Below, piece by piece: positions 10,939 through 29,957 of a stretch of 34,730 bases of DNA. The notes beneath the pieces are model-generated. The model was not told the origin of the DNA, ran no database searches, and was given only the letters and a program-made list of their open reading frames with translations. The position numbers and the translations under genes were made by a program. This stretch comes from a virus, in IMG/VR virus record IMGVR_UViG_3300028196_000042, positions 1-34,730 of that record; one strand, written 5' to 3'. Numbering within the stretch: position 1 is the first letter of the stretch; each line of letters starts with the position of its first letter.

Positions 10939-12402
10939 CTACTCCTTGAAATTAATTTGTAGTACTTCATAATTAAAATCTTCTTGATTGTAAATCTTAA
11001 TTCTTTCTATTAAATGATTCAAAGTATAATTTTTTTTAGATTTATACGTAATATCATCAGCAATATCGTAAAGCACTGCTTGTTGTTTATTATCTCCCTT
11101 GCGTAATACTCTACCTATACTCTGCAAGTTCCTTACTCTTGATTTAGATGGTGATGCAAATATGACATTATGTAGATTCCGAATATTAACACCTGTGCTG
11201 AATGTTCCATACGATGCAACAATAATTGCACTATTTTCTTTTTCGGTAATTTCTCTTACACGTTCTCTTTCTTCTGCTCCTACACCACCAAAAACAAAAA
11301 ATACTTTTCTATTCTTAGTTACAGAGTTATTTATTAGGTTATAAATTGGCATACCATGAGTTTCTACTCTATTAAAAAGTATTAATGAATTTCCTTTCAA
11401 ATCTAAGGCAAGATTTTTTATGAATTTGTTTCTTTTTTCATGACCGATAATATATTGAATTTCTTCTTCATACTCATTAAATTTATGTTGATCATGTTTT
11501 AACAGAAGTACTTTAATTTGCAACTTAGATAGATGACCTTTTTCAATTAAGTCTTTAGTCTGAGTTACTTTGTATGATGGTCCAAATAAACCTTCTAATA
11601 CCCATTTATGTGTCTGTGAACCATCTAAAGTACCAGTAAATCCAAAACGATACTTGGCATTGTCAGTCTTTGTCATTATACTGACTAATGATTTAGACTT
11701 AAATAAATGAGCCTCATCACCAATTATTACATTAAATGGTTCAAAGAAAGGACGTTTCATTTTATAGATTGATTGCCATGTAGTGATTACAACACTTGAT
11801 TTAGTTGTTTTTTCTTTACCTGAATAAATTTTATGACAATATTTTTCTGCATCCCATCCATATTCTTCAAAGTCTTTAAACATCTGTTCGACTAGAGAAG
11901 TGGTTGGGACTACAAGCAGTATCTTTTTACCAGTCTCTGCAAAGTATCTAACAACAGCATAAATCATTAAAGACTTACCAGACCCTGTTGGTGATACAAT
12001 AAGTTTTCTATTGTATTTTAAAGCATCATAAACTGCTTCTATTTGATAATCTCTTGGTTTTAATGAAGTTATCTTAGATAGATAACCCTTTATGCCTTCT
12101 AATGAGATATTTTCGTTAACCTCAAATGGTGTTCCATAAAATTTATTATCCTGAAATTCTACTGAGTAATCAGATTTTTTTGCCCAAGAAACAATTTTAT
12201 CTAATAGACCTGCATATATTTCTCCGGTATGTGGAGAAAACAATCTAATCTTCCCATCCCAATATTTACTTCTATACTGAGGCATGAATTTTGCACCAGG
12301 AACTTCAAAAGTAAAATAGTCACATAGTTCTTGTTTAATGTGAGGTTCTGTTTCTACAGTTATATAAATTTCGTTTTTCTTTTTAATTTTTAAATCAGTC
12401 AT
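10939..12402 (-). CDS. uvsW: UvsW-like DNA/RNA helicase (SF2)
   Basis: A 487-residue helicase. The N-terminal 110 residues match the UvsW accessory domain (FEVPGAKFMPQYRSKYWDGK, IRLFSPHTG). The helicase core has PRDYQ (Q-motif-like) at 116-120, Walker A SPTGSGKS at 137-144, DEAH at 229-232, GFTGTLD near 254, and the C-terminal motifs FSTGVNIR and QSIGRVLRKG. UvsW unwinds R-loops and branched DNA and drives the change from origin-dependent to recombination-dependent replication in T4. Length compares with T4 UvsW (about 500 aa). Its ATG overlaps the end of uvsY by 8 bases. Confidence 0.96.
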   Translation of the reverse strand: MTDLKIKKKNEIYITVETEPHIKQELCDYFTFEVPGAKFMPQYRSKYWDGKIRLFSPHTGEIYAGLLDKIVSWAKKSDYSVEFQDNKFYGTPFEVNENISLEGIKGYLSKITSLKPRDYQIEAVYDALKYNRKLIVSPTGSGKSLMIYAVVRYFAETGKKILLVVPTTSLVEQMFKDFEEYGWDAEKYCHKIYSGKEKTTKSSVVITTWQSIYKMKRPFFEPFNVIIGDEAHLFKSKSLVSIMTKTDNAKYRFGFTGTLDGSQTHKWVLEGLFGPSYKVTQTKDLIEKGHLSKLQIKVLLLKHDQHKFNEYEEEIQYIIGHEKRNKFIKNLALDLKGNSLILFNRVETHGMPIYNLINNSVTKNRKVFFVFGGVGAEERERVREITEKENSAIIVASYGTFSTGVNIRNLHNVIFASPSKSRVRNLQSIGRVLRKGDNKQQAVLYDIADDITYKSKKNYTLNHLIERIKIYNQEDFNYEVLQINFKE

Positions 12403-12823
12403 AACCAGCAGTAAATCTCATAAATTCAATTGCATTTTTTATTTGAAAAGTTCTATTCAATATAGTTTTTAATATACTATCTAGATACGATAACATAGTC
12501 TGATAATAATCTAATTTAGACAGTGATTTGATTACTTCATCATCAGCATCTAGATACTTATCTAAATCATTTTTTAAAACTTTATAATCAAATGGTTTTT
12601 GTATGTATACGTCTGGTTCTGCTTTTCCTGAGTAATACAACCATTTTTCTTTTTTAAGTATTTTATATTTACTTTCTTCCATTTTTTTTAGGAGAAGAAT
12701 ATTATTGTAAATTTTATAATACTTTGAATGTAATGAAGGTATTCTTATAGACTCATTATGTAAATTATCTGGATCTATTTTTGAATCTTCTTCCCATAAT
12801 GTTTGAATTTCATCAATGTTCAT
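12395..12823 (-). CDS. uvsY: Recombination mediator UvsY-like
   Basis: A 142-residue protein with the UvsY layout: MNIDEIQTLWEEDSKID at the start, LHSKYYKIYNNI near residue 30, the conserved YYSGKAEPD around 63-71, LDKYLDADDEV, and a C-terminal helix ending IEFMRFTAGYD (T4: MRAFEAGK). UvsY loads the UvsX recombinase onto gp32-covered single-stranded DNA. Length is close to T4 UvsY (137 aa). It lies directly upstream of uvsW, and its ATG overlaps the tail-tube-like gene by four bases, so it shares that late transcript. Confidence 0.92.
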   Translation of the reverse strand: MNIDEIQTLWEEDSKIDPDNLHNESIRIPSLHSKYYKIYNNILLLKKMEESKYKILKKEKWLYYSGKAEPDVYIQKPFDYKVLKNDLDKYLDADDEVIKSLSKLDYYQTMLSYLDSILKTILNRTFQIKNAIEFMRFTAGYD

Positions 12824-13371
12824 AGTTTAGATTTTATAATGTCATAAATTGTATACTTAAAAGTTGCTGTTGCGGTTATGTAATTTGATTGAGCATCTCT
12901 AGAATCGAATCCAACAGCAGAAAGAGACACTGGAAATAATCCTCGAAATTTTATTTCAGTAATAGGATTGAAATTACTATTATAAACTAGTAATGAAGCA
13001 TTTGCTTGTCCTGAATAAGCATTAAACATTCCAGGAGTCAGTGCATCATTGAATATAAGATCAGCATATTCTTTTACTGATTCTGGATATCCCAAACCTC
13101 TTATCCAATTGTGAATGGTTAAGTAATTTTCCATTTCTTCATCAATAAGAAATTCCAAAGTCAACTCATCATATGTTAGTTTATCTCCAGGAATTGGAAT
13201 ATCTTTTAAATATGATGATTGAACAGCAACACCCAAATTGACCGAAGGTATCTGAATAGAATTTGAAAAGAAATCAATCTTTGGGTATTTTGCTAGTATA
13301 AATTTAAACCCCGTAGTAGTTAAATAATTTCTATTTGATATTTGCTTTGATTCGGGGTTTATGTATTCCAT
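12820..13371 (-). CDS. Tail-tube-like virion protein (gp19/gp54 fold)
   Basis: A 183-residue protein with features of the tail-tube superfamily: LTTTGFKFILAKYPKIDFF near residue 18, the Q-x-PS turn IQIPSVNLGVA, the strand KLTYDELTLEFLIDEEMENY followed by IHNWIRGLGYP, and the C-terminal strands ITATATFKYTIYDI. This D-E-x-x-x-NY-L-x-x-x-NWI pattern also occurs in gp19. It may be a baseplate tube-initiation or tail-completion protein; I cannot choose between them. A late promoter (CATAAATA) lies 25 bases before the ATG, supporting a virion role. It is the first gene of a unit continuing into uvsY and uvsW. Confidence 0.8.
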   Translation of the reverse strand: MEYINPESKQISNRNYLTTTGFKFILAKYPKIDFFSNSIQIPSVNLGVAVQSSYLKDIPIPGDKLTYDELTLEFLIDEEMENYLTIHNWIRGLGYPESVKEYADLIFNDALTPGMFNAYSGQANASLLVYNSNFNPITEIKFRGLFPVSLSAVGFDSRDAQSNYITATATFKYTIYDIIKSKL

Positions 13372-13395: not shown

Positions 13396-13403
13396 TATTT
13401 ATG
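13396..13403 (-). promoter_or_regulatory. Late promoter (CATAAATA) for the tail-tube-like gene
   Basis: A T4-late-type octamer on the minus strand, 25 bases before the ATG at 13371 and just past the U tract of the preceding terminator. Confidence 0.7.
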
Positions 13404-13408
13404 AGCAT

Positions 13409-13430
13409 AAAAAAAACCCCGAAAGGGGTT
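13409..13430 (-). terminator. Intrinsic terminator after the small Cys-rich gene
   Basis: Minus strand: AACCCC, TTTC loop, GGGGTT, then a T run and ATG. A 6-bp GC-rich stem, 12 bases past the stop of the small gene. Confidence 0.85.
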
Positions 13431-19965: not shown

Positions 19966-22362
19966 TTATACGTTACCAACAACTTCAGTGAAGCTGACAC
20001 CTGTGCGGGTAGCAACAAATGTAAGACCAATGAAGTTAATAGAACGTGCAGGTTTTACAAAGACATCCGCAATCATTTCATTTGAATCAATAACACTAGC
20101 GGTATTGTTGGATTTATCACATACAACTAAGAATTCAGAAATGCCTCTCTTTGCTTTAATATCACGCAGATATGGTTCAACAATATTGATGAAGTTTGTT
20201 CTTGTTATTTCATCATTGAATTCAAATAGTTGGGATCTTGATGCTTTTGCAATTGCCTTTTCAATAGTTAAGAACAATCTACGAACATTGATTCTGTCAA
20301 ATGCAGAACCATAACCCAATGCAGTCTTATCACCGAAAAGGATAATACCTTGACCTGAAGAAGAAATAACTGGATTAATTCTCTTTGTGTATAGTAAATC
20401 TCTTTGTGTTTGAGATGGATTATATGCTAATTTAATAGCATTATTAATTGACCCTCTATTTGGTCCTGCTGGTGAGAACCAAGAATACTGATCAATAGAT
20501 GTTCTTGCCATTGCTCCAGCAATATCTGAATTACACTCTAAATATAAAAATTCATTATTGAATCTATCTAGTGTGTATTTGATTCCACTATCAAGAACTG
20601 CATATGAAGAAGATGTGATGGCATCAAAAAATTCAATGATATTGTTTGTTTGAGTTGTACTATTTGTCTGATTTACAACTTCTGCTTTGTGTGGAGAAAT
20701 ACAAGCAATACAATCTTTTCTTTCTTCAGCAATACTAATTAATAGATTAGCTTTTGCTTGGGATTGATAAATTGTGTCACCACCAGAAGGTCCCATAATC
20801 AGGAAGTTAATATCAAATTCTGCAGGATTTCTGAAGACTTCATAACCATTTACAATGTTTCCTAATGTTGCTTCCATACCATTGGTATTGGAATAATCTT
20901 GACCACTACCAAGGGTATATGCTCTGTTACCCAGAACATTGAATGTTGTTGATTGTGCTTCAGAACCAATTGCACCATTAGTTACTGCAAATTGCTTAGA
21001 ATCAGATGCATCTGCTACTAGATCAGATCCAACTGCTGAAGACAATGAACCATTGTAGATATTTTGAGAGTTGGTTCTTAGATACTCTTTAACATAAATT
21101 GCTTGATATGGGGAAATTCTAGCATCCGATGCTTTAGATAAGAAAGTATGTTTCTCAATAATATTTGATGCTGTTCCTGTAATTTTTCCACTATCATCAA
21201 CAATAACTATATGCATTGTGTCATTTTTAGAACTTCTTTCTCTTGCATATTCACTTGCTACTGGTTTTGGAGCAACCGACTTCCAGAAAATATCTGCATT
21301 TGAGATATCTAATTTTTGATTATCGTACCAGTCTTTAACTCCGAAATCCTCATTGGTGTTTAAAAATGCCTGCACACTACCTGTCGTTGTTGTAACATAC
21401 AGTGGATTTGCGGCTCTTAAAGCATAACTTCCAGCATTTGATGCAGAATACTTATATGATATTTTCTCTGAAATACCAGTGTCATTTGGTACTCTATCTG
21501 TAATTCTGACAGATACCTGTCTATCTCCCACTCCCGTAATAATTCCTCTAACGTAACCCTCAAAGGTAGTGGTAGTTCCATTAGAACTTGCTTCAGTTGC
21601 AGATACAGTTTCAGTCACTGCCATTCCGACAGCAATGTTTGTTGGAGTAGTTGTAATAGTCCTTCTTTCAATAATGAAAGATTCTCCTGTTAATTGTGTA
21701 CTATTTGAAGATGTACTAGTTAGTGTAATTGACGAAGCACCAATTGCAACAATAGGGTCGTCTCCAGGAAAATAGTTATTTGTGACGATATCACCTACAG
21801 AAATTAGAGCAGTTGAAATTCCAGTAACAAGTGATGTGTTTATTCCAATATCACCCGTTAAGGTTGCAACCGTGGAATCTGATGAAGATACAATTGCTGT
21901 TGTCGCAATTCCTGTAATAATTTGATCTGCAAAATCATCAACTATGCAAACTTTAATTCCGTTTGCCCAAGAACCAGGTGTTCTTGCGGCAAAAGACCAA
22001 GTAGTATCATTTGTATGATTGGTATCAAAATCTTCTTCTGAATCAATTTTTAAAGTTGTTAACTCTTCACTATTTGCAGATAAAACTGTATCTCCATCTG
22101 CACGAACTACACGTAGAACACCACCATATGAAAGGTAGTTTGATGCCGATAACCAATATTGATTTTGACCATTTGTCTTTAATGGTTTTCCAAAAACTTG
22201 TAGTAAATCTGCTTCCGTTTCTACTAGAACTGGGACATTGATTGGTCCCTTTTCAAAAGGACCACAAATACCACCGACCTGCGAAGCAACCCCATCAATT
22301 CTTCCAGTAGTTAAGTCAACTTCCCTTACTTTTACTCCCGGTGATGCTAAATTTAAAGCCAT
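19966..22362 (-). CDS. 18: Contractile tail sheath protein, gp18-like
   Basis: A 798-residue sheath protein. It begins MALNLASPGVKVREVDLTTG, followed by GICGPFEKGPINVPVLVETE (residues 32-51), the usual N-terminal sheath arm. A variable surface region rich in Thr/Ser fills about residues 130-330. The C-terminal core has the family segments LYTKRINPVISSSGQGIILFGDKTAL and RINVRRLFLTIEKAIAKASR, and the terminal beta strands FVKPARSINFIGLTFVATRTG. T4 gp18 has 659 residues; the extra residues lie in the outward-facing domains. The frame opens at 22416, but GAGGGAAAC precedes the ATG at 22362, which I take as the start. Confidence 0.97.
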   Translation of the reverse strand: MALNLASPGVKVREVDLTTGRIDGVASQVGGICGPFEKGPINVPVLVETEADLLQVFGKPLKTNGQNQYWLSASNYLSYGGVLRVVRADGDTVLSANSEELTTLKIDSEEDFDTNHTNDTTWSFAARTPGSWANGIKVCIVDDFADQIITGIATTAIVSSSDSTVATLTGDIGINTSLVTGISTALISVGDIVTNNYFPGDDPIVAIGASSITLTSTSSNSTQLTGESFIIERRTITTTPTNIAVGMAVTETVSATEASSNGTTTTFEGYVRGIITGVGDRQVSVRITDRVPNDTGISEKISYKYSASNAGSYALRAANPLYVTTTTGSVQAFLNTNEDFGVKDWYDNQKLDISNADIFWKSVAPKPVASEYARERSSKNDTMHIVIVDDSGKITGTASNIIEKHTFLSKASDARISPYQAIYVKEYLRTNSQNIYNGSLSSAVGSDLVADASDSKQFAVTNGAIGSEAQSTTFNVLGNRAYTLGSGQDYSNTNGMEATLGNIVNGYEVFRNPAEFDINFLIMGPSGGDTIYQSQAKANLLISIAEERKDCIACISPHKAEVVNQTNSTTQTNNIIEFFDAITSSSYAVLDSGIKYTLDRFNNEFLYLECNSDIAGAMARTSIDQYSWFSPAGPNRGSINNAIKLAYNPSQTQRDLLYTKRINPVISSSGQGIILFGDKTALGYGSAFDRINVRRLFLTIEKAIAKASRSQLFEFNDEITRTNFINIVEPYLRDIKAKRGISEFLVVCDKSNNTASVIDSNEMIADVFVKPARSINFIGLTFVATRTGVSFTEVVGNV

Positions 22363-24347: not shown

Positions 24348-24527
24348 TTATAAATCTTTGTAGTTCATATTCAATACAGTTTCTTGAAACTTAAAATGTA
24401 ATTTAATATAAGATTTTGCAATATCTTTTATTTGGTCAATATCATTACACATATCAACTTCTCTTGAGAGTTTTTCATATTCAAAAATTTTAGATAGGTT
24501 GCTTAACTCAATTTCATCAGGTTTCAT
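24348..24527 (-). CDS. Small hypothetical protein directly upstream of gp17 (59 aa)
   Basis: A 59-codon ORF with AGGAG 7 bases before the ATG at 24527. It starts MKPDEIELSNLSKIFEYEKL and continues as amphipathic helices (DIDQIKDIAKSYIKLHFKFQE) to a stop three bases before the gp17 ATG. It overlaps the DUF5872-like gene in an ATGA junction. Its position, good ribosome site and tight packing support a real gene. It is too short for gp16, which is identified at 25506-25937. Function unknown; a packaging accessory or RNA-polymerase-binding peptide could be considered, but nothing shows this. Confidence 0.8.
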   Translation of the reverse strand: MKPDEIELSNLSKIFEYEKLSREVDMCNDIDQIKDIAKSYIKLHFKFQETVLNMNYKDL

Positions 24528-25489
24528 TGTGTATCTCCTGTATATAGTAATGGTTTAGTTGGATCTTTAATTGAAGGGTTAAATGAAAGAATTCTTGCAT
24601 CTGGATATAACTTTCTTACTTCAAATGTAACTTCTTCTTTTGTTGGTCTTGAAAATTTTGGAAAAAACATCTGGACAGAAAGCATCTGCCCTCTCCAATT
24701 TAACATTATAGTATAAGTCATGCCACGAGACTGTATTCTTGAATAGTCTTCTTTGACATTTTTTGATTTATTACCCCAATTCTTTGCACCTTTTTTACGG
24801 CATTTAACTAAAGCACCTGATGCATATGCTGAAGGCCATACAGAATAACGTGCTTTTACTTTATGATAGCAAGCATCCTTTTCTTCATTAGTTACATAAT
24901 CTGCTGCAGTGTCAATGTAATCTGTTGCTTTTGTTATTTTTGATTGAACCCAAGCTTTTAATTCACCCTCACCCGTTTTGCCCATCTTTTTTTGAAGACG
25001 ATTTGCTGCACTTTTTAAAGTTTTTAGTTGAGACCTTGCCATCGCAAATTCATGATCTTTTTTATCTTCTTCAGTCATTGCTTCAATATCATAAGTGTCA
25101 AAACCATTATCTGAACTTTTATCTTCATCATCTATTTTTTTATCTTCTATTTTTCCAATTACTTCACCATATGAATCTGTTAATTCAATTTCTTCCGTTG
25201 CAACATTTTTTGCTTTTCCTTTTCTATCAGGATTGGGATCTTTAAGATTCTTTCTACGAAATGCTTTTTTCTCCTCCTCATCAGAAAGTTCTGCCTTCAT
25301 TTTACTAGAACCGCACTTTGGTTTGGTTGTTTGACCTGGTTGCTTCGCACATGGTTTTCCTGCGTACTTTCCACCAAGCTGAACCCAACCAGGGGTGCCA
25401 TCAGAAGAGATACTCTTGCTAAACCAGTCACGCAAAGAACTATCACCACTTTTGTTGGCTTCATATAAAAATTCTGAAAAGTATTTCAT
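24524..25489 (-). CDS. DUF5872-like protein in the packaging cluster (321 aa)
   Basis: A multi-part protein. Residues 13-64 match the DUF5872 pattern: GDSSLRDWFSKS, GWVQLGGKYAGKPCAKQPGQ, TKPKCGSSKM. A linker rich in Lys, Asp and Glu follows (about 65-145), then a helical segment (SQLKTLKSAANRLQKKMGKTG). Next is a second motif with DACYHKVKARYSVWPSAYAS and GALVKCRKKGAKNWG, close to motifs seen in other marine phage proteins. Last is a C-terminal beta-rich domain (YTIMLNWRGQMLSVQMFFPK). Three Cys-containing basic motifs suggest nucleic-acid binding. It sits between gp16 and gp17, so a packaging or head role is likely. No enzymatic residue is evident. Confidence 0.8.
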   Translation of the reverse strand: MKYFSEFLYEANKSGDSSLRDWFSKSISSDGTPGWVQLGGKYAGKPCAKQPGQTTKPKCGSSKMKAELSDEEEKKAFRRKNLKDPNPDRKGKAKNVATEEIELTDSYGEVIGKIEDKKIDDEDKSSDNGFDTYDIEAMTEEDKKDHEFAMARSQLKTLKSAANRLQKKMGKTGEGELKAWVQSKITKATDYIDTAADYVTNEEKDACYHKVKARYSVWPSAYASGALVKCRKKGAKNWGNKSKNVKEDYSRIQSRGMTYTIMLNWRGQMLSVQMFFPKFSRPTKEEVTFEVRKLYPDARILSFNPSIKDPTKPLLYTGDTQ

Positions 25490-25505: not shown

Positions 25506-25937
25506 CTATTTAGAATCATCTTGATTCTTAATTCCTTGTTTTAATATTTTTTGTAAGTCTGCAGTTGAACCAATAAACATAGTGTTATTTGTAGTAACAT
25601 TTTTTGGTCCTTTAGAATCTTCTTCATCCAATTTTTTCATCTTTTGTTGAAGGTCTAATAATTTATCAGATATATCAGCAACGTTTTTAATTAATTGACC
25701 AGCAACTTCATATGCTCTTGGTGATTCTGATTGCTGTGCTATATCTAGTATTCCATTTATTGCCTCTTGCCCTTTATCAATTAAGTTATATAATTGTGCT
25801 CTAGTATATCCATAATCTTTTTCTGAATCTACACCATCTTCTTTTGGATTGGGTCTTTCTTTTTTTACTACTTCTTTAGATACCTCCGTTGCTTCAATAT
25901 CTAAAGAATCACTTATCGCATCAAAATTATTCATCAT
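25506..25937 (-). CDS. 16: Terminase small subunit, gp16-like
   Basis: A 143-residue protein whose core parallels T4 gp16 (164 aa): DYGYTRAQLYNLIDKGQEAINGILDIAQ (residues 41-68), SESPRAYEVAGQLIKNVADISDKLLDLQQKMK (T4: DSPRHMEVFATLMGQM...), and the C-terminal NNTMFIGSTADLQKIL (T4: NATVFMGSPTELMDEI). The two central helices make the ring that recognises DNA and stimulates gp17. Its ATG overlaps the gp15 stop by four bases. In T4, genes 16 and 17 are adjacent; here a 321-residue protein and a 59-residue ORF intervene. Confidence 0.9.
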   Translation of the reverse strand: MMNNFDAISDSLDIEATEVSKEVVKKERPNPKEDGVDSEKDYGYTRAQLYNLIDKGQEAINGILDIAQQSESPRAYEVAGQLIKNVADISDKLLDLQQKMKKLDEEDSKGPKNVTTNNTMFIGSTADLQKILKQGIKNQDDSK

Positions 25938-26980: not shown

Positions 26981-27012
26981 TTCAAAATATTGTATAGGTA
27001 TTTACTTATTAT

Positions 27013-28401
27013 TTAGAACTCTCCAAATGGGTTAGTTTCTGTAAAGTCAATTATTTTATCTGCCTCTTCTTCAATTGTATAATTTTCGGCAAAGGTATCA
27101 TCAACATCATCTGTTTGTATTGAAAAAACTGTATAAGAACCTGCAGCACCAACAACAGTTTCACCTAAAGCAAAATTACCATTAATTATAGAAACTTTTA
27201 ATTTTCTATTATCATTATTCCAATCTTTAACGTGTGCTTTAGTTCCTGTTTTTTCCCCAGTAACTATTTCATTAAACTCAAATCCACCACTTGAAATTCC
27301 AGCAGGTTCTGCAATTGTTATTTGCGGTGATGTAGTGTATCCGATTCCAGCATCAGTAAATCTAATTGCGGTAACTACTCCAACAGTATTAATAAATGCT
27401 TCTGCTTTTGCTGTTACTGCTGCACCAATAACTGGCGGAATACCTATAGTAACATCTGGTGCAGAAGAATATGCTTGACCACCAGAAGTAATATTTACTG
27501 GGGATAAGGATCCTGAATTTATGATTGCAGTAGCAATAGTTCCAGAACCACTGGATGAAATAAACTTAATTTCTGGTTTCACATCATATCCGTAACCTGG
27601 ATTAGTTATGTAGATTTTACTAACAGAACCTCTGTCTATTACTGCAACTGCAGTTGCAGTAATTCCACCACCAACTGGATTTGAAATATCAACAATTGGA
27701 GACGACTTATACCCACTACCACCATGAATTAAATCTATATTTGATATCGAATAGTCTGGAACTCCAGAAGCAAGTTCGGACATCAGACCAACAGATGCAA
27801 TTGCAGTTGTTGCTCCAGAACCAACCATTTGCATTGTAATCATATAACCAAAATCTTTTATGGAACCATCAACATCATCAATTCCCGTATCAATAATTTC
27901 ATCTTCATATTCAAACAACTCACATCTCAATTCATAAACATATAAATCATTCAACTGATAGAATGGTGTTTTTGTTTCTACATATTTAATCTCGAATAAA
28001 GCATTATCTAGAGGTAAGTAAATCAAGTCTCCTTCTTGGGGACGAGTTTTTACTTTAACATTTTCATCTCTAAATAAACCTAGTTTGGGTGTTATGAAGT
28101 CAGAATATCTTTCTCTTGAAATAACAAAAGTTATTTCATCAGTACTTCTGACCCCAAACTTTGATAGGATATCACCATTACCACCAAAACCATCAAAAGT
28201 AGAAATGTATGCTTCTAATCTAAAACTATCGTCAAATTTAGAAACAATTATTTCTTTAATAATTTTTTCTTCATTAATAATCTTTCTAGGCATATAGAGA
28301 ACATCTTGCCCATACATTGATAACTGTTCGTTTATCAATGACTGGACAAGTCTTTGTTCACTTGGTGAACCTTGTAAGAAATAAGGATTTAAAGGAGTCA
28401 T
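27013..28401 (-). CDS. 14: Neck protein, gp14-like, with repeat extension
   Basis: A 462-residue protein. The N-terminal 175 residues match T4 gp14 (256 aa): LNPYFLQGS, LYMPRKIINEEKII, YISTFDGFGGNGDILSKFG and QEGDLIYLPLDNALFEIKYVE followed by PFYQLND. After that come four copies of a glycine-rich beta unit: GGSGYKSSPIVDIS, NPGYGYDVKPEIKFIS, SGGQAYSSAPDVTIG and DAGIGYTTSPQITIA (about residues 225-370). A C-terminal segment ends in FTETNPFGEF, resembling the end of the T4-type protein. The repeats probably form surface decoration on the neck. AGGTTAAT precedes the ATG, and one base separates it from gp13. Confidence 0.92.
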   Translation of the reverse strand: MTPLNPYFLQGSPSEQRLVQSLINEQLSMYGQDVLYMPRKIINEEKIIKEIIVSKFDDSFRLEAYISTFDGFGGNGDILSKFGVRSTDEITFVISRERYSDFITPKLGLFRDENVKVKTRPQEGDLIYLPLDNALFEIKYVETKTPFYQLNDLYVYELRCELFEYEDEIIDTGIDDVDGSIKDFGYMITMQMVGSGATTAIASVGLMSELASGVPDYSISNIDLIHGGSGYKSSPIVDISNPVGGGITATAVAVIDRGSVSKIYITNPGYGYDVKPEIKFISSSGSGTIATAIINSGSLSPVNITSGGQAYSSAPDVTIGIPPVIGAAVTAKAEAFINTVGVVTAIRFTDAGIGYTTSPQITIAEPAGISSGGFEFNEIVTGEKTGTKAHVKDWNNDNRKLKVSIINGNFALGETVVGAAGSYTVFSIQTDDVDDTFAENYTIEEEADKIIDFTETNPFGEF

Positions 28402-28402
28402 A

Positions 28403-29218
28403 TTAACCTATCATATCTAATGGTGGCATTTCATATTCTGTATGTAACTTCTCTTCAAGAACTGTTATTTCATTTACTGCATCATCATATAGTTGTCTTC
28501 CATTTAAAGTAATTCCACCAGGCAATTGAACACCATTAAATTTAATCATATTCATTCCCCACTGCTTTTTAATTAATGCAGTCGAGTATTTTTTTAACCA
28601 CCAATCATTATAAACCTTTGTAAATTCTAATGGGTTTACAATTCGGAAACAATCTAAAATTAACCATGACTCTTCATGAACACTTGCCCAGTCAATATCT
28701 AAGTACAACCTTCCTTGTTTTTTATTGAATCTTAACTGAACGTCAGGTGTAAGTAATCTTCCAATATCTTCTAAGTGTGTTTTTACCATTGCATAATTTA
28801 ATAAATCTAATGCACCATAGTAATGAAGGTCATTTAAGAATAATTGATATTTCAAATTAAACATATCACCAGAAACAGTACTGGAATCCATTTTAAAAAC
28901 ACCATTAACACCGATTACAGTATCTGGTAGCTTTAAAAAATTAGTTGTCTCGTTATATGATACGGTAGAAACTCCAACTGAAGAAGTTGCTGTTGTAGTC
29001 GTTACACCAGTTCTTATAATTTCCTTTTCTTCTGCAGTAATTTTATGCTTTAAAAAAACTCTCTCCACACCATCATAATGCCTTTCATTATAATATTGAA
29101 GAGCATCGTCTATCAAATCGTCAATTTGATCATCGTCTACATTTACTTCTAAAACTGGTTTACCTAATTGTTTTAGGCAATATTCTTTCAACTCAGACCT
29201 ACTAGATGGCTGGGCCAT
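28403..29218 (-). CDS. 13: Neck protein, gp13-like
   Basis: A 271-residue neck protein. It shows the T4 gp13 pattern: SRSELKEYCLKQLGKPVLEVNVDDDQIDDLIDDALQYYNERHYDG at residues 6-50 (read as consecutive segments), then LPDTVIGVNGVF, LYLDIDW, and YNDWWLKKYSTALIKKQWGMNMIKF near residue 205. gp13 and gp14 join head and tail. T4 gp13 has 309 residues. The ATG at 29218 directly follows the eight-T tract of a terminator. The Shine-Dalgarno AGAGG lies in the 3' arm of that hairpin, 10 bases before the ATG. Confidence 0.93.
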   Translation of the reverse strand: MAQPSSRSELKEYCLKQLGKPVLEVNVDDDQIDDLIDDALQYYNERHYDGVERVFLKHKITAEEKEIIRTGVTTTTATSSVGVSTVSYNETTNFLKLPDTVIGVNGVFKMDSSTVSGDMFNLKYQLFLNDLHYYGALDLLNYAMVKTHLEDIGRLLTPDVQLRFNKKQGRLYLDIDWASVHEESWLILDCFRIVNPLEFTKVYNDWWLKKYSTALIKKQWGMNMIKFNGVQLPGGITLNGRQLYDDAVNEITVLEEKLHTEYEMPPLDMIG

Positions 29219-29250
29219 AAAAAAAATACCTCTAGTTCCCTAGAGGTATT
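29219..29250 (-). terminator. Intrinsic terminator between the DUF7936-like gene and gp13
   Basis: Minus strand: TACCTCTAG, a GGAA tetraloop and CTAGAGGTA form a perfect 9-bp stem (11 with flanking A-T pairs), then eight Ts, then the gp13 ATG. It lies 28 bases past the upstream stop. Confidence 0.88.
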
Positions 29251-29254
29251 TATA
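29247..29254 (-). promoter_or_regulatory. Late promoter (TATAAATA) for gp13, overlapping the terminator
   Basis: A perfect late octamer on the minus strand whose last bases are the first bases of the terminator stem. Using T4 spacing (octamer at -13 to -6), the start would be near 29241, at the end of the hairpin's 5' arm. Confidence 0.8.
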
Positions 29255-29277: not shown

Positions 29278-29664
29278 TTACTCACCACCTTCACCAGGTG
29301 TTAATGGTGCTTCATAGACTTCTCCACTATACCATGGAGTATGGAACTCATCTATTTCTTCTTTTATTTGCTCATATATTTTCTTCTCAATTTGTGCATC
29401 AATATGATCTCTATATGTAAAGTCTTCATTTACTACATTTTGAATCCATCCAAGTACAAGTTCTTCCGTTAAGTCGTCATATGATACAAAGTTATTTGGA
29501 TCAACTGTTGCCAACTCAAATGGAGTTGCTCCAGAAAAGTCACCAACAACACCGTCCTCGTTGGTTCCAGTTTTTTTCCAATATGTTTGGACAATAGCAT
29601 TATTATACTGACTATTGTTGACCTTTTTTATGCCATAGACTGACCAAGTATATGTAATGTTCAT
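29278..29664 (-). CDS. DUF7936-like small phage protein (128 aa)
   Basis: A 128-residue protein starting MNITYTWSVYGIKKVNNSQY. An N-terminal beta domain has a Trp-rich strand and KKTGTNEDGVVGDFSGATPF. The middle contains FVSYDDLTEELVLGWIQNVV, a motif common to a small family found in many phages (DUF7936-like, from memory). An acidic helical tail follows (KKIYEQIKEEIDE), ending in a Gly/Pro-rich segment. Probably a virion or assembly-associated protein by location; no enzymatic residues are seen. It is followed by the terminator before gp13. Confidence 0.8.
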   Translation of the reverse strand: MNITYTWSVYGIKKVNNSQYNNAIVQTYWKKTGTNEDGVVGDFSGATPFELATVDPNNFVSYDDLTEELVLGWIQNVVNEDFTYRDHIDAQIEKKIYEQIKEEIDEFHTPWYSGEVYEAPLTPGEGGE

Positions 29665-29949: not shown

Positions 29950-29957
29950 TATTTATA
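29950..29957 (-). promoter_or_regulatory. Late promoter (TATAAATA) for the coiled-coil gene
   Basis: A perfect late octamer on the minus strand, 30 bases before the ATG at 29920 and 22 bases past the stop of the fibre gene. Confidence 0.8.

Follow-up and report, generated by a model that had tools for sequence, protein, structure and literature searches.

Immediately before gp13 in the window (the whole stretch of 34,730 nucleotides analyzed here), a T4-type late promoter octamer and a hairpin resembling an intrinsic terminator share bases. Is this overlap an accident of crowding in a short gap, a device to control translation, a binding site, or a single element that ends one transcription unit and starts the next? 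From the comparison of related leaders we favor the last answer, with a probability of roughly 0.78: the element would be an intrinsic terminator with a late promoter inside it, insulating the gp13 unit of numerous T4-like marine cyanophages.

Genomic context of gp13

The order after gp13 is gp14 (head closure Hc2) and gp15 (tail sheath stabilizer), and in front of it are two small ORFs and a very large fiber-like ORF (Table 1). The T4-type late promoter, which depends on gp55, has the form TATAAATA, with NATAAATA in S-PM2 and CTAAATA in Aeh1. Late heptamers in the window number 18 on the minus strand versus 2 on the plus strand, most of them located 25–49 nt before an ORF start. Read-through from the promoter assigned to the small upstream ORFs is what a terminator before gp13 would stop. 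Two further minus-strand sites carry TCTAAATA, a late-promoter variant known from Aeh1: one at 27010–27017, 37 nt before the start of a gp15-like ORF, and the other at 25507–25514, 25 nt before the start of ORF 24524–25489. This suggests that the A and C promoter forms are both used within one genome. The tandem site at 13396–13430, which precedes ORF 12820–13371, looks like an un-nested version of the same job.

Table 1. Features of the gp13 leader and of related sites in the window
Feature	Position	Strand	Basis or remark
Late octamer TATAAATA, T4-type, gp13 unit	29247..29254	-	exact match, 0 mismatches
Intrinsic-terminator-like hairpin, 12 bp, AAATACCTCTAG-GGAA-CTAGAGGTATTT	29224..29251	-	terminator scan, folding
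Hairpin parts: 5' arm; loop; 3' arm	29251-29240; 29239-29236; 29235-29224	-	
T8 tract after the hairpin, adjoining the gp13 start codon	29219..29226	-	sequence
Expected late +1, A29241, inside the 5' arm	29241	-	from T4 spacing
AGAGGT, candidate ribosome site in the 3' arm (AGAGG 29233-29229)	29228..29233	-	anti-SD pairing
gp13, neck/head-tail adaptor Ad2, 271 aa, first gene of the proposed insulated unit	28403..29218	-	phrog_211, E 4.4e-46
Upstream co-directional ORF, 128 aa, phrog_7802, function unassigned	29278..29664	-	end 59 nt before gp13
Late promoter TATAAATA of the small upstream ORFs	29950..29957	-	motif match
Tandem terminator (AACCCCTTTCGGGGTT + T-tract), then CATAAATA 11 nt later	13430-13415; 13403-13396	-	

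Geometry of promoter and hairpin

The minus strand around the element reads ...TAATTATAATTATAAATACCTCTAGGGAACTAGAGGTATTTTTTTTATGGCC..., and the gp13 ATG is 36 nt from the start of the octamer. Five bases (29247–29251) are shared by the octamer and the stem, which bears out the overlap claimed in a preliminary description of this DNA; the stem given there (29227–29248) proved to be the core of the full 12-bp hairpin. A stable, G+C-containing stem followed by a U-tract is what is expected of a predicted intrinsic terminator, and a TATAAATA/NATAAATA octamer shortly upstream of a late gene is what is expected of a T4-type late promoter; both are present here. The hairpin is the top terminator-like site between positions 20000 and 34730 of the window, and the element region folds with −26.2 kcal/mol (z = −3.2), a value equaled by 1 of 200 shuffles. 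Sigma-70 sites in the region were not more common than in shuffles.

The octamer of T4 late promoters occupies positions −13 to −6 (PMC1524935), and with the octamer taken in this register the +1 was placed 13 bases from its first base. The resulting A29241 is one base short of the end of the 5' arm, and the predicted late RNA, AGGGAACUAGAGGUAUUUUUUUUAUG, would retain two 5'-arm bases and thus be unable to form the hairpin. Judged only by T4 spacing, the late start would therefore lie within the hairpin and the hairpin would be absent from the late RNA, so the geometry agrees exactly with the earlier proposal that a start near 29241 removes it. The base at the expected +1 is A in 17/17 distinct cores aligned that share the architecture of the window (the arm type, below). 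Late starts of the T4 type depend on gp55, gp33 and gp45, whose genes are carried by cyanomyoviruses (PMC2984593). The use of gp55 and the position of the +1 at the gp13 leader are inferred by analogy with T4.

Conservation among relatives

In a single genome such an overlap could be due to chance, since short gaps are where late promoters and terminators alike accumulate; it is conservation of the element in relatives that argues chance away. A degenerate search for the arm-type core in 2.9 million viral contigs matched at least 119 stretches, in more than 100 contigs, and among the matches listed all the distinct ones are directly before gp13. The 30 nt upstream of the core are unrelated between relatives: sequence information is near 0.2 bit per base in this flank and rises at the octamer to mostly 1.4–2 bits throughout the element. 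The pattern search was biased to one sequence, and a re-scan of 3.2 Mb around gp13 took stems of any sequence and set the late heptamers (NATAAATA or NCTAAATA) against permuted motifs. Nested terminators were found 107 times at 1212 late heptamers versus 8 times at 12,303 permuted heptamers, and the nested cases listed are before gp13. Octamer and stem have been kept nested in more than 120 leaders, and the separation of promoter and hairpin, which had been named as contrary evidence, is rare, with one clear tandem leader (L280). The hairpin is absent in many relatives, including the cultured Syn19, S-SM2, S-SSM7, S-CAM1 and S-CAM3, so the element is not essential.

The position of the upstream gene differs with the kind of leader. 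With nested leaders, a same-strand gene ends 36–60 nt before gp13 in 99 of the 111 cases; where neither promoter nor stem is present, the upstream gene abuts or overlaps gp13 in 62 of 69, and gp13 is there probably co-transcribed. To judge from these leaders, gp13 appears to be fused to the upstream operon, to have its own promoter, or to have a promoter inside a terminator, the last of which is insulation in the least space. In the comparison of L327–L341 with L286, whose gp13 genes are 88–92% identical, the sequence upstream of the octamer is switched completely and the leader from the octamer onward is similar, an apparent recombination boundary at the promoter.

Two architectures of the nested element

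The nested leaders fall, by their sequences, into two architectures with unrelated stems. In the arm type, which includes the window and the cultured S-SCSM2R, the octamer extends into the 5' arm. Loop-type leaders, which come from the cultured S-RIM32 and from many contigs, have the heptamer (ATAAATA or CTAAATA) as the loop of the hairpin, as in AAGTCCCTGCCTG-ATAAATA-CAGGTAGGGACTT TTT. The 5' arm of this second type is upstream of the promoter, and consequently only RNA coming from upstream could form the hairpin. The loop-type stem has 95% of cells paired, with both-side changes in 25 cells. Its covariation score is 0.292, whereas shuffles scored 0.136 (0/500) and slid controls no higher than 0.096. 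Variation is lower in the arm type, with 98% of cells paired and both-side changes in two pairs: the stem pairs that occur are CCTC/GAGG, CCTC/GGGG and CCCC/GGGG, and none of the arm-core matches listed has CCCC/GAGG, though the search pattern allowed it. Median hairpin energies are −14.3 (arm) and −17.4 (loop) kcal/mol, and the leaders of the late RNAs are predicted to be nearly unstructured (medians 0 and −1.5 kcal/mol).

Two other arrangements were noticed in these leaders. In L402 and L403, 75 nt before gp13, the long loop of a TACCCTTCT ... AGAAGGGTATTTTT terminator contains GCTAAATA, possibly a third nested form. In part of the arm-type phages (L083, L023, L026 and others), a second hairpin without a T-tract (e.g., GGGTGAGTGATAACTCACTC) lies about 20 nt upstream of the octamer and covers some or all of the preceding gene's stop codon.

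These observations bear on two of the alternatives. That promoter and terminator simply share a short gap, with a uniform core that spread recently as a block linked to gp13, would suit intergenic gaps of just 36–60 nt and the existence of tandem arrangements (window 13430–13396 and L280). We nevertheless regard it as very unlikely, given the excess of nested cases over permuted motifs, the two unrelated hairpin types, the covariation in the loop type and the divergence of the arm-type gp13 proteins, whose identity is 42% at the minimum and 53% at the median. Less probable still is a role of the palindrome as a binding site on DNA or RNA (a repressor operator, a recombination linker at the cassette edge or an RNase site), with terminator features that are secondary. 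Conservation does set in sharply with the element, at the end of the variable cassette, and the operators of T4 intron endonucleases overlap late promoters (PMC2988022). The loop-type stems, however, differ in sequence while remaining paired, a pattern better explained by structure than by recognition of a sequence; no stem sequence is common to the arm and loop types, and a T-tract is directional.

Coupling between the stem and the T-tract

If the hairpin is a terminator, it should be accompanied by a T-run. In 270 distinct gp13 leaders, stems anchored by G-C pairs were called with the T-run ignored, and a leader was counted as nested when the stem enclosed the expected +1. A T-run of at least 5 was present in 122/123 nested leaders, in 6/72 with an octamer but no detected stem, and in 0/75 with neither. 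Five of these six do have a stem, with a bulge, a mismatch or a long loop, that escaped the detector. Nearly all arm-type relatives have a tract of T6–T8. Among 18 independent contrasts in the stem on the gp13 tree, the T-run changed in the same direction in about 14 and in the opposite direction in 0 (median p 1.2e-4); the arm-type core is very uniform although its gp13 proteins are divergent, so that horizontal transfer of the leader is possible and some of these contrasts may be less independent. Among the near relatives of L286, those without the 5' arm also show ACTTTG in place of the ACTTTTTG of the hairpin forms in this group (L334–L336), in a leader that is otherwise very similar. The joint evolution of stem and T-tract is well supported by these comparisons and supports the reading of the hairpin as a terminator.

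The ribosome site and the translational alternative

The AGAGGT of the window pairs with the anti-SD sequence CACCUCCUUU at −6.5 to −7.2 kcal/mol. In the arm type generally, the 3' arm contains GAGGU or GGGGU, for which anti-SD pairing is −6.5 or −5.6 kcal/mol. In the window's late RNA, weak pairing of the ribosome site with codons near the start of gp13 is predicted (−8.1 kcal/mol). Loop-type leaders have their start codon and the nearby SD-like bases 3' of the hairpin, outside the helix, and hiding of the ribosome site is therefore not a function shared by both types. The claim that hiding AGAGG restricts gp13 translation stands in part: it fits the arm type and does not carry over to the loop type. 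As an extra in the arm type, we give such hiding about even odds.

The element could instead be mainly a translational switch, in which the hairpin hides the gp13 site on long RNAs from upstream, a late start releases it, and the T-run is incidental to an A/T-rich leader. Such a switch presupposes early or middle RNAs that reach the gene and have to be kept silent. The precedent is firm: in T4 e, soc, 49, I-TevI and segB, and in Aeh1 mobE, a late promoter lies within the sequence of the hairpin 5' arm and the ribosome site is in the hairpin (PMC3014915, PMC2988022). As in these genes, the late RNA of gp13 would lack the 5' arm, and the arm-type hairpin includes the ribosome site, a good Shine-Dalgarno match; this half of the idea is not new, being the arrangement of T4 e, soc, 49 and I-TevI. 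L207, L216 and L224, which are arm-like and keep an imperfect stem without a T-tract, would also suit a switch of this kind. The gp13 hairpin differs from the T4 e type, however, in having a T-tract and looking like an intrinsic terminator, with the T-run coupled to the stem across the gp13 tree, and the loop-type hairpin leaves the ribosome site free. Moreover, gp13 is a structural neck gene, and the RNA from upstream is probably late itself; the upstream genes being apparently late, there is no obvious early RNA to silence. For these reasons we consider a mainly translational switch improbable, though less so than crowding or a binding site.

Relation to other late promoters and other genes

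With T4-type late promoters in general, the gp13 promoter shares the consensus, the spacing to the start codon and the place before late genes; unlike the usual ones, which stand clear of any hairpin, it runs into the stem or makes up the loop. The tandem arrangements of the window (13430–13396) and of L280 likewise end one unit and start the next, but there terminator and promoter lie apart, and the new RNA can arise without the loss of a hairpin arm. We found no prior account in the open literature of a phage late promoter placed inside a terminator, which is weak evidence of novelty; searches on promoter/terminator overlap and on cyanophage start-site maps yielded nothing usable.

A genome-wide scan covered three large phage genomes, the two complete cultured S-RIM32 and S-SCSM2R and one long contig. 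They have 27, 36 and 25 strong terminators, respectively, of which 1, 2 and 2 are nested or abutting cases. One case per genome is at gp13 in all three. The two further cases led us to reject the idea that the design is exclusive to gp13; it is concentrated there, not confined.

Arrangements at other genes were also seen. In L421 (contig IMGVR_3300042453_001086, about 33149, minus strand), the 5' arm of a 13-bp terminator (CCTCCCCTAA...TTAGGGGAGG, then T5) contains CCTAAATA. This second nested element immediately precedes a 427-aa ORF (phrog_13937, function unassigned), whose candidate ribosome site is the GGGAGG in the 3' arm. In S-SCSM2R (PQ898602.1, 190687–190827; L439, L444), an annotated wcaG RNA is followed by a terminator that abuts CCTAAATA and might serve this RNA as its expression platform; the gene after the terminator is annotated as a 2OG-Fe(II) oxygenase.

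Proposed function

The nesting, pairing, T-tract, conservation and covariation described above can be read directly from the sequences. On this basis, the function supported as common to the arm and loop types is insulation by termination plus restart. A polymerase arriving from the upstream late unit (tail-fiber and accessory genes) would transcribe the whole hairpin and U8 and stop before gp13. One starting at the nested octamer would make RNA without the 5' arm, escape termination and read into gp13-gp14-gp15 and onward. The gp13 unit would in this way be insulated from the variable upstream cassette within a gap of about 36–60 nt, and in the arm type any read-through RNA would also fold the GAGGU ribosome site into the hairpin. 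The initial suggestion that one element separates two units thus accords with the co-evolution of stem and T-tract, the conserved nesting and a second, unrelated architecture built alike.

Considerably more tentative is the view of the element as a 'self-erasing terminator' of T4-like cyanophages that arose at least twice, as arm and as loop, almost always before gp13, and that possibly couples the two units. A polymerase halted in the U-tract would sit on the promoter and may block it, making the output of the gp13 unit inverse to upstream traffic.

If insulation is the function, termination would be added to the known T4 logic of a hairpin lost through late initiation, and a clean natural test would be offered by the convergent loop form. 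The design, a compact insulator, could be tried in synthetic circuits. For the phages themselves, one sequence would act as stop or start depending on where the RNA began, and a variable adhesion cassette would be separated from the essential neck module in about 40 bases.
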